Below, in pieces: positions 21,372 through 58,006 of a stretch of 64,000 nucleotides of DNA; the first letter of the stretch is position 1, and each line of letters starts with the position of its first letter. This DNA comes from Sphingomonas brevis. GTDB lineage: Bacteria; Pseudomonadota; Alphaproteobacteria; Sphingomonadales; Sphingomonadaceae. The translations under genes were made by a program, and so were the position numbers. The notes beneath the pieces were generated by a model, which saw nothing but the letters and a program-made list of their open reading frames with translations, searched no databases and was not told the DNA's origin. The DNA lies in assembly GCF_023516505.1 (NCBI RefSeq), contig NZ_JAMGBB010000001.1, forward strand, positions 744,001 to 808,000, written 5' to 3'.

Positions 21372-21394
21372 GTTGCAGTCAGCCGGAGCAGTTC

Positions 21395-21616
21395 GCCCAC
21401 AGCGACCAGGGTCTCCTGCCGTAATGGCGGGAGCGAAGGGGGAAGCCGGCGAACATCCGGCACTGTGCCCGCAACTGTGATCTCAGCATCCGCTGAGCGT
21501 AGTCAGATACCCGCCTTGGCCCGTCGTCCGTTTCCTCGGCCGGGACCAGCCTTGGGACGTGGGTCAGACCACGCCTCAACGGCGCGCGCCTTCCCTCCGT
21601 GACGACATGTCATGGA
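21395..21616 (+). promoter_or_regulatory. Cobalamin (AdoCbl-type) riboswitch controlling btuBFCD
   Basis: The leader contains the conserved cobalamin aptamer landmarks. These are GGTCTCCTG pairing with GGCGGGAGC (about 21409-21434), the core GGGAAGCCGG with CATCCGGCACTGTGCCCGCAACTGTGA close behind (to about 21480), and the B12-box-like AGTCAGATACCCGCC near 21501-21515. The expression platform ends in hairpins at 21558-21573 (CGTGG/CCACG) and 21597-21615 (CCGTGAC/GTCATGG). The second abuts the btuB ribosome binding site (GGAAGAGAAGGA), and no T-run is present. That suggests control of translation. The whole 21289-21631 gap is explained by the rpmE promoter and this element. Confidence 0.9.
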
Positions 21617-21631
21617 AGAGAAGGACTGCAA

Positions 21632-23455
21632 ATGATTGATTTTCAAGCGATAGAACCACCAGCAATCGTCGTCACCGCGTCACGTGCCGAGGAAAGCATA
21701 TCGGACACGCCGGCCAGCGTAACGGTGATCGACGAAAAGCGCATCGAGCGTCTTGGAGCGCCATCCATACCTGAATTGCTGCGGCTCGTGCCGTCGGTCG
21801 CCGTCGGCGTCAGCGGACCCGCCGGCTCTCTTACTCAAGTGCGCATTCGCGGTGCCGAGGCCAATCACAGCCTGCTGTTCGTGGAAGGCATCCGCGCCAA
21901 CGACCCGGCTTCCGGCAATGAGCCTCGGTTCGAGCTCCTGAACGCCGACCTCGCCAGCCGCATCGAGATCGTTCGCGGCCCGCAATCGGCGCTGTGGGGC
22001 TCCGAAGCGATCGGCGGGGTTGTGGCGGTAAGCGGACCGGCGCCGGGAGCCGGCGGCAGCCAGGCTTTTGTCGAAGGCGGCAGCCATTCGACTTGGCGTG
22101 GCGCGGGTCGTACCGAGGCAGGCGATGCCGATGGCGGCATTTCCATTGGCATTGCCGGGCAGCGCAGTGACGGAATCGACAGTTTCGACGGCGATGGCGA
22201 CCGGGACGGCTATTACAACTACGGTCTTCGAATGGCCGGGCGTTACCGCGCCGCCCCTTCCCTGCTGATCGGAACGTCGGGCTTCGCGATCAAGGGCAAG
22301 AGCGAGTTTGACGGCTTCCTCAGCGCCTTCCCCTTCCCCCATGGAGACACTCTGGACAAAAGCCGCACTGGGATGGCTGCCGGCAGGCTGTTTGCGGAAT
22401 ATGGCCAGCGCGAAACCAGCTATGCGATCGCATCCGCCGGCCTGCTCGGCTCGTCCAATCGCAACTATCTCGACGATGAATTCCTCAACAAGACCACCGC
22501 CCACAGGCGAACATTATCGCTTGAAGGCGGGCACCGGCTAGGGAAGCATCAGCTGATCGGCGCGATCGAGAGTGAGCGCGAGACCTTCGAGGCTCGTGGC
22601 AACTATCCCAACCAGGACCAGGCCCGGCACCATGAATCGCTGACGCTGGAATGGCGGGCAGCCGATATCGGTCCGGTGAGCGGCGGCGTTGCGGTCCGCC
22701 ACGACATCTTCTCCCGCTTCAAGGACGCCACCAGCATTCGCGCCTCGCTGAGGGCCGACGTCGGGCATGGGATTTCGCTCGCCGCCAGCTACGGCGATGG
22801 CATTTCCCAACCCACATTCTTCGACCTGTTTGGCTTTTCGCCCGACCGGTTCGTCGGCAATCCCGCACTCAAGCCGGAATCAAGCCGCGGCGGCGAAGTT
22901 TCGCTGCGCTATGCCACCGACCAGATCGGCGGAGCGCTGACTTACTTTCACCAACGGCTCAAGGATGAGATCGCGACGATCTTCCTGCCTGACTTCACGT
23001 CGACGGCAATAAACGCCGAGGGCAAGAGCAAGCGCCAGGGCGTCGAATTGGAAGGCTATTATCAGCCGTGGGCGGCCCTTCGCCTGACCGTCAACTACGC
23101 ATGGCTGGATGCCAGCGAACCGCAAGTTGGCGGCGGTCAGCTCAGGGAGACACGCCGTCCCAAGCATAGCGGGAGCGTGGCCCTCGATGGCGCCAAGGGC
23201 CGACTAAGCTATGGCGCGGCAATCGCCTATACCGGCGAGCGTACGGATGATGATTTCGACTTCTTCCCGGCCGAGTCGGTCCGGCTTGACGCTTATTGGC
23301 TGGCCAGCGCGAAAGTCGCCTATCGCCTGACCGACCGGATCGAAGCGCATCTGCGCGTCGCCAATGCCTTCGACGACGATTATCAGGATGTATTCGGCTA
23401 TCGGACTGAAGGGAGGAGTGTCTTTGGCGGGCTTCGCGTCGCTCTTGGCGACTAG
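21632..23455 (+). CDS. btuB: BtuB-like TonB-dependent cobalamin receptor, no visible signal peptide
   Basis: The product of about 607 residues is a TonB-dependent receptor placed directly behind a cobalamin riboswitch. It has a plug (VVTASRAEESISDTPASVTVIDEKRIE, TQVRIRGAEANHSLLFVEGIRAND, IEIVRGPQSALWGSEAIGGVV) and a barrel ending GYRTEGRSVFGGLRVALGD. The likely start is ATG at 21632 behind AGAAGGA. A GTG at 21599 would add 11 polar residues. Neither start gives a hydrophobic signal peptide, although the mature-like sequence begins at once. Export is therefore unexplained: either the true start is elsewhere or the 5' end was altered. It is followed by btuF, C and D. Confidence 0.88.
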   Translation: MIDFQAIEPPAIVVTASRAEESISDTPASVTVIDEKRIERLGAPSIPELLRLVPSVAVGVSGPAGSLTQVRIRGAEANHSLLFVEGIRANDPASGNEPRFELLNADLASRIEIVRGPQSALWGSEAIGGVVAVSGPAPGAGGSQAFVEGGSHSTWRGAGRTEAGDADGGISIGIAGQRSDGIDSFDGDGDRDGYYNYGLRMAGRYRAAPSLLIGTSGFAIKGKSEFDGFLSAFPFPHGDTLDKSRTGMAAGRLFAEYGQRETSYAIASAGLLGSSNRNYLDDEFLNKTTAHRRTLSLEGGHRLGKHQLIGAIESERETFEARGNYPNQDQARHHESLTLEWRAADIGPVSGGVAVRHDIFSRFKDATSIRASLRADVGHGISLAASYGDGISQPTFFDLFGFSPDRFVGNPALKPESSRGGEVSLRYATDQIGGALTYFHQRLKDEIATIFLPDFTSTAINAEGKSKRQGVELEGYYQPWAALRLTVNYAWLDASEPQVGGGQLRETRRPKHSGSVALDGAKGRLSYGAAIAYTGERTDDDFDFFPAESVRLDAYWLASAKVAYRLTDRIEAHLRVANAFDDDYQDVFGYRTEGRSVFGGLRVALGD

Positions 23456-24173
23456 CGCTGCCCTGAGGGTGGCATCGCTCAACATGTGCGCTGACGAATA
23501 TCTCCTGCTGCTGGCCAGGCCGCAGGAGATCGCCAGTGTCAGCCGATTGTCGCGCGATCCGGCGGACTCGTCGCTTTGGCGCCTCGGGCAACGCTATCCT
23601 GGCAATCGCGGCGACCTTGAAAGTGCCTTAAGAACTAGGCCCAACTTGTTGATTACAATGGGCGGAGGCGGAAAATCGACGGTGATGATCGCCAGGCAGA
23701 TGGGCCTTAGGACGCTCGACCTGCCCTATCCGGCGACCATCGCCGATATTTCAAACAGCATGACATTGGTTGCCCGTGCATTGGGCGATGAAAGCCGCGC
23801 GCTCCCCTGGAAGGCGAAGCTGGCCGGCCTCCGGCGATCCGCACCGCCCGCCCGTGACGCCATTTTCCTCGGCGCCGGTGGCAATAGCGTCGCCGCCCGA
23901 TCGGTCGAGGCGGAATGGATGCGGATGGGCGGGCTCGAGCAACGTGCGCTGCCCGGCGGTCGTGCCACGCTTGAACAGCTGGCGATGAACCCGCCCGCTG
24001 TCTTGCTACGCTCGACCTATCGCCGTTCCGAGCGGTCGCTGGGCCAGGTTTGGCTCGAGCATCCGCTGGCCAGCCCGAAGGTATCGAAGATCGTCACCAT
24101 CGACGGCCGTCCCTGGACCTGTGCCGGTCCATTGATGCTGGGCGAGGTCGAGCGCCTGCGGAGCGCCTTGTGA
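23424..24173 (+). CDS. btuF: BtuF-like periplasmic cobalamin-binding protein
   Basis: This protein of about 249 residues belongs to the helical-backbone substrate-binding family. The start of the mature part (LRVASLNMCADEYLLLLA, IASVSRLSRDP) is characteristic of BtuF-like proteins, and the chain continues with a helical linker and a second lobe. The start is uncertain. TTG at 23424 has an ideal GGGAGGA 6 nt upstream, but ATG at 23388 or 23364 would add a lysine/arginine-bearing n-region before the hydrophobic stretch GFASLLATSAAL and so a better signal peptide. All options overlap the btuB end. It couples to btuC by a GTGA overlap. Confidence 0.82.
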   Translation: MAGFASLLATSAALRVASLNMCADEYLLLLARPQEIASVSRLSRDPADSSLWRLGQRYPGNRGDLESALRTRPNLLITMGGGGKSTVMIARQMGLRTLDLPYPATIADISNSMTLVARALGDESRALPWKAKLAGLRRSAPPARDAIFLGAGGNSVAARSVEAEWMRMGGLEQRALPGGRATLEQLAMNPPAVLLRSTYRRSERSLGQVWLEHPLASPKVSKIVTIDGRPWTCAGPLMLGEVERLRSAL

Positions 24174-25126
24174 AGGCCTTGCTGGCAATTGGGTTATTGC
24201 TCGCGATTGCGGCGCATCTGCTCTTGCCGCTGGGCCCGCTGGCCGAGGCCCGGGCCATCAATCCCGATCTGGCCGACCTGATCCTGGTCCAGCTTCGCCT
24301 GCCGCGGACCCTGCTGGTGCTTGGGTACGGCGCGGTACTGGGGATCAGTGGCGCGGCCCTGCAGGCAATATTCGCAAACCCTCTCGCCTCGCCCGACATC
24401 AGCGGGGCATCGAGCGGAGCGGCACTGGGCGCCGTCGTTGGCGGCTATTGGCTTGGCCTTACCCAGCCGCTGCTGCTGGCGGCCTGCGGCGCCATCGGCG
24501 CGATCGGCACGCTGGCGCTGCTGGTCACACTAGCCGGGCGCAGGGCTGACACGACCACCTTGCTTCTGGCCGGTCTTGCCATTTCACTCGCCGCAGGGGC
24601 CGCGACCAGCCTTGCCCTCGCGCTCGCCCCTTCGCCCTTTGCATTTTACGACGCCTATGATTGGCTGATGGGCAATTTCGCCGACCGTAGCCTCGCCCAG
24701 GCAGCCGCGGCGCTCATCCCGGCGGCGATTGCCTCCGCCCTGCTGCTGCGCCGTGCCCGGGCGCTCGACCTGACCGCGCTTGGCGAAGACGTCTCTGCTT
24801 CGCTCGGCCTGAAGCCGCGCCGCCTCGCCCTGGAGGTGATCGCTCTCTCCGCAATTGCAGTTGGCGCTTGCGTTTCCGTCGCCGGGGCGATCGGCTTCGT
24901 TGGATTGGTCGCCCCGGTGTTTGGCCGTACGCTCAGCCGTGGGCACCCCGGTTCGGCGATGGTCCCCGCTGCATTGATCGGCGCTATCCTGCTCGCGGCT
25001 GCCGACCTGGTCGTCCGCGCGGTGCCGCTCGACCGTCCGATCCCGGTCGGCGTCGTCACCGCTCTGTTCGGCACCCCTCTGTTCGTCTGGCTGGTGGTGA
25101 CCATGCGGAGGAGGGTGACGGCATGA
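24170..25126 (+). CDS. btuC: BtuC-like FecCD-family ABC permease
   Basis: This 318-residue polytopic membrane protein has about nine or ten hydrophobic helices. The FecCD signature GYGAVLGISGAALQAIFANPLASPDISG precedes GAALGAVVGG, and the cytoplasmic coupling segment ALGEDVSASLGLKPRR and AIGFVGLVAPVFGRTL are present. It starts with GTG at 24170 (overlap GTGA with btuF) and ends in ATGA with btuD. With BtuD it should import B12 from the periplasm. Confidence 0.93.
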   Translation: MKALLAIGLLLAIAAHLLLPLGPLAEARAINPDLADLILVQLRLPRTLLVLGYGAVLGISGAALQAIFANPLASPDISGASSGAALGAVVGGYWLGLTQPLLLAACGAIGAIGTLALLVTLAGRRADTTTLLLAGLAISLAAGAATSLALALAPSPFAFYDAYDWLMGNFADRSLAQAAAALIPAAIASALLLRRARALDLTALGEDVSASLGLKPRRLALEVIALSAIAVGACVSVAGAIGFVGLVAPVFGRTLSRGHPGSAMVPAALIGAILLAAADLVVRAVPLDRPIPVGVVTALFGTPLFVWLVVTMRRRVTA

Positions 25127-57523: not shown

Positions 57524-57552
57524 GTCCTAGAGAGGCGGTTGCTGCAACGCAA
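57524..57552 (-). promoter_or_regulatory. Putative proS promoter
   Basis: Minus strand TTGCGT (57547-57552), 17 bp, TAGGAC (57524-57529). The transcript would begin about 37 bases before the TTG start of proS. Confidence 0.5.
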
Positions 57553-57656
57553 TGATCCCAGACGCTGTGGCGCGATGGTCACAGCTTGATGGAGAATGTG
57601 TCCGCCATGCGCGAATCGGCGTGACAAGCGCCGATATTCGAGCCTAGCCAATGCCC

Positions 57657-57793
57657 CACGGACGTGGTCGTCAGGCCGGAAGTCCGGGGAGGAGCCGACG
57701 CCGGTCAGGGGGCCGAGGCGCTTCGAAACTTCCAAGGGGGCTGACGAGCAATCGTCACGCAAGGACGCCCGGGACTAGCGCCCGGGCGTTTTT
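57657..57793 (+). ncRNA. Candidate structured ncRNA ending in an intrinsic terminator
   Basis: The 57482-57929 gap has no convincing ORF. Its centre is dense in complementary segments: CCGG-AAGT-CCGG (57677-57688), TGACGA-GCAA-TCGTCA (57742-57757, a GNRA-capped stem), and a strong plus-strand terminator (57766-57793). A possible promoter is GTGACA (57621-57626), 18 bp, TAGCCA (57645-57650), giving a transcript of about 137 nt from near 57657. Two further pairings (AAGCGCC 57626-57632 with GGCGCTT 57717-57723, and CGGAC 57659-57663 with GTCCG 57682-57686) would require or favour an earlier 5' end. I could not match it to 6S, SRP, RNase P or tmRNA. The 5' end is a guess. Confidence 0.5.
57766..57793 (+). 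terminator. Rho-independent terminator of the candidate ncRNA
   Basis: CGCCCGGG (57766-57773) and CCCGGGCG (57781-57788) form a perfect 8-bp GC stem with a 7-base loop, followed by five T (57789-57793) and a further T-rich stretch. The opposite strand lacks a T-run, so it acts on plus-strand transcripts. Confidence 0.85.
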
Positions 57794-57863
57794 GTTTTTG
57801 CCGGATTTGCCGCATGATCGCCATCTCGCGCCGTCGCGCGCCCGGCGCGACGTACTCAGATGC

Positions 57864-57923
57864 TCCCCCGGACATGCAGCGCGCCGATTTTAATGCTCGC
57901 ATGTCCCCCGGACATGCTGCGCG
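57864..57923. repeat. Two 20-bp direct repeats beside tRNA-Met
   Basis: TCCCCCGGACATGCAGCGCG (57864-57883) recurs 40 bp later with a single change (57904-57923, A to T). Each unit contains CCCCCGG flanked by CATGC. The pair ends 6 bp before the 3' end of tRNA-Met. It could be a small repeat family or the 3' flank that signals tRNA processing or termination. Confidence 0.7.
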
Positions 57924-57929
57924 TGAAAA

Positions 57930-58006
57930 TGGTAGCGGAGGAGGGACTTGAACCCCCGACACGCGGATTATGATTCCGCTGCTCTAACCAGCTGAGCTAC
58001 TCCGCC
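57930..58006 (-). tRNA. tRNA-Met (CAT), elongator type
   Basis: The minus strand folds as a 77-nt cloverleaf. It has acceptor GGCGGAG with CTCCGCT (one G-T pair), D-arm GCTCAGCTGGTTAGAGC, anticodon arm CGGAATCATAATCCG with anticodon CAT, T-arm GGGGGTTCAAGTCCCTC, and an encoded CCA. The paired first base and D-arm do not fit initiator tRNA. A lysidine-modified Ile tRNA also reads CAT but has a different acceptor. Confidence 0.9.

Follow-up and report, generated by a model that had tools for sequence, protein, structure and literature searches.

RNA sponges, or anti-sRNAs, of other bacteria are RNAs complementary to the seed region of a small RNA (sRNA), and the hallmark of 6S RNA is a rod with a large central bubble that mimics an open promoter. 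Characterized sphingomonad sRNAs are scarce in the open-access PMC literature, in which we also found no report of the RNA described here. The suhB/mmgR family (RF00519, clan CL00108) includes SuhB of Sphingopyxis granuli TFA, and one sRNA of this type mediates carbon catabolite repression in Sphingopyxis (PMC6563040). Of the Caulobacter sRNAs, GsrN is driven by sigma-T (PMC5869019), and ChvR, 84 nt in length, is encoded in the CCNA_00157/recF intergenic region (PMC6237742).

The locus considered here lies in a 64,000-nucleotide window of the Sphingomonas brevis genome (C1:744001-808000; short coordinates below are window positions, unless given for the genome). Like the suhB/mmgR RNAs, its predicted product would be a small trans-encoded sphingomonad RNA with an intrinsic terminator, and its putative partner, suhB2, is related to that family; unlike them, it is not a family member, its exposed motifs are G-rich rather than C-rich, and the suhB copies are found elsewhere. 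With GsrN and other C-rich-loop sRNAs it shares the C-rich versus G-rich pairing chemistry, which suhB2 would use, but GsrN is the C-rich side under sigma-T, whereas here the window RNA would be the G-rich partner and the two promoters have a housekeeping-type appearance. ChvR likewise comes from an alphaproteobacterial intergenic region and has its own promoter but differs in locus and size, and 6S RNA (RF00013) is similar in size range and stability of fold but differs in that its model does not match here and the genome has a separate 6S gene. Compared with known sponges, we infer sponging here for a standalone gene that is conserved family-wide and shows covariation between two RNAs.

Anatomy and distribution of the RNA gene

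The original prediction placed a structured RNA in a 448-bp gap without a plausible protein, and both descriptions of the gap are accurate. The gap is bounded by the start of proS (57481, minus strand) and by tRNA-Met (57930-58006, minus strand), and no genuine-looking ORF spans the interval. The 60-aa ORF on the plus strand (57596-57778) starts upstream of the RNA promoter, and since relatives carry indels of every length in this region, a reading frame is unlikely; a coding RNA was rejected because the frames are broken by these indels. The several inverted repeats that had been claimed for the gap are also present.

A probable proS promoter (57526-57556, minus strand; -10 CTAG, -35 TTGCGT) points away from the RNA, and its CTAG and GCAAT blocks are conserved in a 30-genome same-genus alignment. 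Between the divergent promoters lies the palindrome CTGTGGCGCGATGGTCACAG (57565-57584), whose TGTGGC-N6-GNCACA pattern is largely kept in same-genus relatives and occurs at three sites in this genome versus one for the reversed pattern; the palindrome is possibly an operator. TCCAAGGGGGC and a TGTGGC-N6-GCCACA palindrome also occur together in the leader of an outer-membrane protein gene (G000:C1:422014-422086, L125), a likeness to the RNA gene that we took as chance since neither element is kept in the leader of the closest relative. The predicted RNA promoter (57621-57648, plus strand; -35 GTGACA, N16, -10 CCTAGC) is sigma-70-like with a housekeeping-type look, and in relatives the core is preceded by a near-invariant TGACA and, at comparable spacing, by a CCTAG-like box. 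The inverted repeat GAATCGGCG..CGCCGATATTC flanks the -35 element and is DNA upstream of the putative start, which shifts the left boundary of the RNA rightward from 57610 by about 45 bases. Thus, of the interval first proposed for the RNA, 57610-57793, the right part stands, while 57610-57654 is promoter rather than RNA.

The resulting RNA of about 139 nt would extend from the promoter to the terminator (57655-57793, plus strand), with its start at approximately 57655. It contains a 5' module, GGCCGGAAGUCCGGGGA (57674-57690, plus strand), and a near-invariant 3' module, CCAAGGGGG (57732-57740, plus strand), whose G tract is invariant in all 26 genus sequences compared. The GNRA-capped stem noticed at the outset, TGACGA-GCAA-TCGTCA at 57742-57757, is part of a hairpin, GC-UGACGA-GCAA-UCGUCA-C-GC (57740-57760, plus strand), in which 97-100% of cells are paired. 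The plus-strand intrinsic terminator was correctly anticipated (57765-57800, ACGCCCGGG-loop-CCCGGGCGT followed by TTTTTGTTTTT) and shows two-sided changes in 8 of 12 pairs. Farther right, between the RNA terminator and tRNA-Met, positions 57862-57925 of the window hold repeated CCCCCGGACATGC units and the small palindromes GCATGTCC/GGACATGC.

Predicted folding is more stable than that of nearly all dinucleotide shuffles (z = -3.1 for 57610-57800 and about -2.8 for 57655-57793), and an alternative fold of the RNA, formed by the inverted repeat 57665-57677/57738-57750, would compete with the conserved hairpin. Covariation in alignments of relatives, which had been proposed as a check, was found in the helices at levels above all shuffles. 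For hairpin and terminator together, 96.9% of cells were paired (29-39% in slid controls) and 10 of 20 pairs showed two-sided changes, with 33 two-sided cells observed versus 8.3 expected and none of 500 shuffles equal; the hairpin itself has a two-sided change in two pairs at family level. A central stem, conserved in shape rather than in sequence, was paired in 93 of 110 cells, versus 64.2 +/- 4.1 in 20,000 shuffles with a maximum of 81, in the subset of 23 of 39 sequences (22 distinct) that could be anchored by a simple motif.

A DNA search recovered the core (57731-57773) from 33 of the 36 other genomes of the genus; it was missing in G026, G027, and G028, two of which are of low completeness; exact matches among named genomes were in Sphingomonas cremea, a Sphingomonas MAG, and Sphingomicrobium astaxanthinifaciens. 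Alignment of 30 loci, this one included, gave a constant order of proS promoter (minus strand), TGTGGC-N6-GNCACA, plus-strand promoter (GTGACA-N16/17-CCTAG), a segment that differs among loci in length and sequence, CCAAGGGGGCUGACGA-GCAA-UCGUCACGC, and the terminator, past which the plus strand is without conservation in relatives. In all 30 of these same-genus loci, proS adjoins the RNA. Of 398 genomes of the order searched with a covariance model (R1), 137 gave a match, and these represent 22 of 84 genera, every one of them within Sphingomonadaceae; a broader model (R2) matched 148 of 298 genomes and 33 of 79 genera, counts that take in weak matches and matches at a hisI locus. Strong R1 matches occur once per genome, and every one that was fetched adjoins proS or, where proS is absent there, lolC, at the head of the proS-lolC-lolD operon, with the RNA divergent from either gene. 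The RNA was not matched in a phage search, and the sole match in a plasmid search was in S. parapaucimobilis, where the annotated neighbor is a lipoprotein-releasing permease gene. Outside Sphingomonadaceae, R2 gave in a class-wide sample only matches of 29-35 bits, which is noise level; these look terminator-driven and were not counted, and L084, L085, L121, and L123 are probably chance matches. Comparison at family level yielded a conserved 5' module, GGCC[G/A][U/C]GGUUC[G/A]GGGA, followed by the central stem. The GGGGA module is absent in several same-genus members (L005-L007 type), and suhB2 was not found for them.

With a conserved promoter, terminator, and locus, covarying helices, and no reading frame, the interval is close to certain to be a real, independent, and previously unlisted sRNA gene. 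It fits no housekeeping family, as had been proposed, being conserved, syntenic, and covarying, and no Rfam 15 family reached its curated threshold at this locus in the window or in relatives. The RNA is best read as a separate RNA family of the Sphingomonadaceae. This adds an unlisted family with one gene per genome at a fixed locus, and with an alignment and a model fit for annotation. Several known RNAs were searched for by name. The SRP RNA (RF00169) has no match in the interval, the genome's copy being at 733576-733670 (63.9 bits); suhB/mmgR (RF00519, cut-off 41 bits) has none in the window, its model matches in this genome being at 1809846, 1048505, and 1743881. A CsrB/RsmZ-type CsrA sponge was rejected, as PF02599 was found in none of the 10 genomes that carry the RNA or its hisI-locus counterpart.

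The suggestion that the RNA is a divergent 6S RNA, which drew on size and compact folding only, can be given almost no credence. This 2.59-Mb genome has a bona fide 6S RNA (RF00013) at C1:474038-474191, scoring 47.4 bits against a cut-off of 46.4; it lies outside the window, as do the SRP RNA and the three suhB-model matches, and its presence there led us to reject the 6S reading. The covariance search proposed as a check returned no 6S match in the interval even at E<5, and both single and consensus folds consist of separate short helices, not of a 6S-type rod with a central bubble. It is also highly improbable that the element is no gene in its own right and instead a leader, an attenuator, or a 3' UTR processing product of a neighboring transcript. 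The best sub-threshold Rfam matches, to Thr_leader (21 bits) and SorX (19 bits), are far below the cut-offs and fall mainly on the terminator half, which lends that half a weak likeness to such elements; however, both neighboring genes are on the opposite strand, the promoter and terminator are the element's own and are conserved, and the plus strand downstream is not conserved.

Candidate pairing with suhB2

The putative partner, suhB2, is a sub-type of RF00519-model matches, a model with several copies per genome, and lies outside the window at C1:1048505-1048583 (minus strand). Scoring 29.9-37.4 bits with the model, short of its cut-off of 41, suhB2 is a divergent, C-rich mmgR/suhB relative. 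Its predicted fold comprises two hairpins, the first with a C-rich loop, a single-stranded linker (UCCUCCCUGAACC; UCCUCCCUGACUUCC in this genome), and a terminator; its promoter looks housekeeping-type. Where checked, by annotation and tblastn, suhB2 adjoins an N-formylglutamate amidohydrolase gene (relatives L183, L186, L189, L201-L203, L210, and L211), and a second synteny-guided fetch found no further suhB2 genes.

The 5' module, GGCCGUGGUUCRGGGA, is antisense to this unpaired linker (UCCCUGACUUCCAGCC), with 15 of 16 pairs and a one-base bulge in this genome; across all eight genomes in which both RNAs were found, 13-16 of the 16 positions pair. Six of the eight cognate pairs came from the suhB-model search, G025 from a synteny prediction, and S. 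parapaucimobilis from a plasmid-collection record. The site had been noticed before testing and some genomes were reused; the two later additions, G025 and S. parapaucimobilis, have 13 and 15 of 16 positions paired, respectively. In a first screen of five suhB copies against three RNAs, the RNA of this genome and suhB2 reached -49.9 kcal/mol, with none of 400 shuffles equal; neither of the other two RNAs reached significance in this whole-molecule test, which was run with the suhB2 of this genome and not with their own. The ordinary suhB copy showed no excess pairing (74, 330, and 156 of 400 shuffles equal). Duplex energies at the level of the module ranged from -26 to -44 kcal/mol, and no shuffle of 1000 was equal in six of the eight genomes, against 3 and 28 in the other two. 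Folded alone, the RNA has its 5' module partly paired in the predicted structure; co-folding with suhB2 gains 12.5 kcal/mol over the separate folds.

Changes in one RNA are matched by changes in the other. Cognate partners were paired in 117 of 128 cells, the maximum over all 40,320 partner assignments (fraction 0.0036), and energy alone gave a weaker cognate advantage (2.2% of permutations equal), although these permutation figures overstate independence, as the eight pairs are kin to one another and some are identical at the site. Pairs were counted on a hand alignment because a MAFFT gap had been misplaced in the concatenated trans-alignment. Two-sided, compensatory changes occur at pairs 5-9, with A-U, A-U, and G-C at pairs 7-9 here becoming G-C, G-C, and U-A in genera around Sphingomonas sensu stricto, and a G.U pair becomes A-U at pair 12. 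About 2 in 360,000 background windows pair equally with a given linker, so that any genome should hold other targets of equal strength. The second putative contact, in which the AAGGGGG of the 3' module offers a 7-nt complement to the C-rich loop of suhB2, was not above shuffles in this genome. Overall, pairing between the 5' module and the suhB2 linker is well supported by these comparisons, and the RNA has the extended, conserved complementarity to an exposed sRNA seed that is expected of a sponge.

Proposed function and a second architecture

Our favored reading, held with moderate confidence, is that the locus encodes a trans-acting RNA of about 139 nt, of its own family, that base-pairs with suhB2 and most probably serves as its sponge. 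The RNA would be transcribed from its own promoter, divergently from proS-lolC-lolD, as far as its own terminator; a 5' module of the GGCC..GGUUCRGGGA type would form about 16 bp with the exposed suhB2 linker, and AAGGGGG may make a second contact with the C-rich loop. Titration of suhB2 would then relieve mRNAs whose Shine-Dalgarno regions suhB2 would block. Expression, duplex formation in cells, the outcome of titration, and the direction of sponging are all inferred; the last is favored because the C-rich suhB2 linker resembles an anti-Shine-Dalgarno seed, with the RNA mimicking the linker's complement. The usual difficulty with an orphan sRNA is to say which RNA it acts on, and here a specific partner, suhB2, can be named; if the sponge reading is true, a layer of control over mmgR/suhB-type sRNAs is exposed.

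It is possible, though unlikely, that the main targets are C-rich stretches of mRNAs and that complementarity to suhB2 is incidental, both RNAs recognizing Shine-Dalgarno-like sequence. AAGGGGG and GGGGAGGA are Shine-Dalgarno-like, outer-membrane protein mRNAs here have similar G-rich segments at their start, and sites of equal pairing strength arise by chance elsewhere. However, the pairing reaches well past the segment that resembles a Shine-Dalgarno sequence, and pairs 5-9 covary in this extension. An 11-nt perfect complement to the 3' module is absent from the mRNAs of this genome: in a search for a perfect mRNA target, the sole site outside the RNA gene, GCCCCCTTGGA, falls within an outer-membrane protein gene's 5' leader and is in the same sense. 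Alternatively, the roles might be reversed, with suhB2 as effector controlling the stability of the proS/lolC-side RNA, which would itself act otherwise, e.g., by protein binding through the GNRA hairpin. We consider this improbable. Conservation of the UGACGA-GCAA-UCGUCA hairpin does exceed the demands of pairing alone, and a central stem kept in shape and not in sequence is consistent with such a role, yet the 5' antisense module is retained in a structurally different RNA at the hisI locus, which argues for pairing as the core function.

This hisI-locus RNA was recognized from weak but length-consistent R2 matches divergent from hisI (g24, g25, g28, g34, g48, and other genera), the hisI neighbor being confirmed in three genomes. 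These RNAs have a different fold and mostly start with GCCA..GUUCAGGG or GCCAAGGA, antisense to the suhB2 linker; the one cognate partner checked (G196) pairs at 13 of 16 positions. In all five examined hisI-bearing genomes with the proS/lolC RNA, the hisI region lacks these motifs. The proS/lolC and hisI RNAs may be two architectures that share mainly the antisense module, with homology putative. A broader proposal, which we advance only tentatively, is that of a family-wide RNA-on-RNA switch: a sponge co-evolving with one mmgR-like sRNA through two contact sites and in two architectures (proS/lolC and hisI), the pairing being selected and the scaffold rebuilt around it.

Three further observations were made along the way. 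The larger structured RNA adjoining hisI (L095-L107, L109, L111, L112, L122, and L124, in several other Sphingomonadaceae genera) has conserved GGUUCAGGGG, GAUGAGGGAU, and CUGGGGGG segments and its own terminator, and no Rfam match was found among those scanned. Whole-genome searches of G000 and G014 gave no match to PF01502 (hisI), of which relatives in other genera have one, so that histidine auxotrophy or the use of another enzyme is possible in these genomes. Finally, elsewhere in the window, a cobalamin riboswitch (21392-21532, plus strand; 64.7 bits) lies upstream of ORFs resembling a TonB-dependent receptor, a substrate-binding protein, and an iron/B12-type permease (21599-25126), a locus that looks like ordinary B12 uptake.
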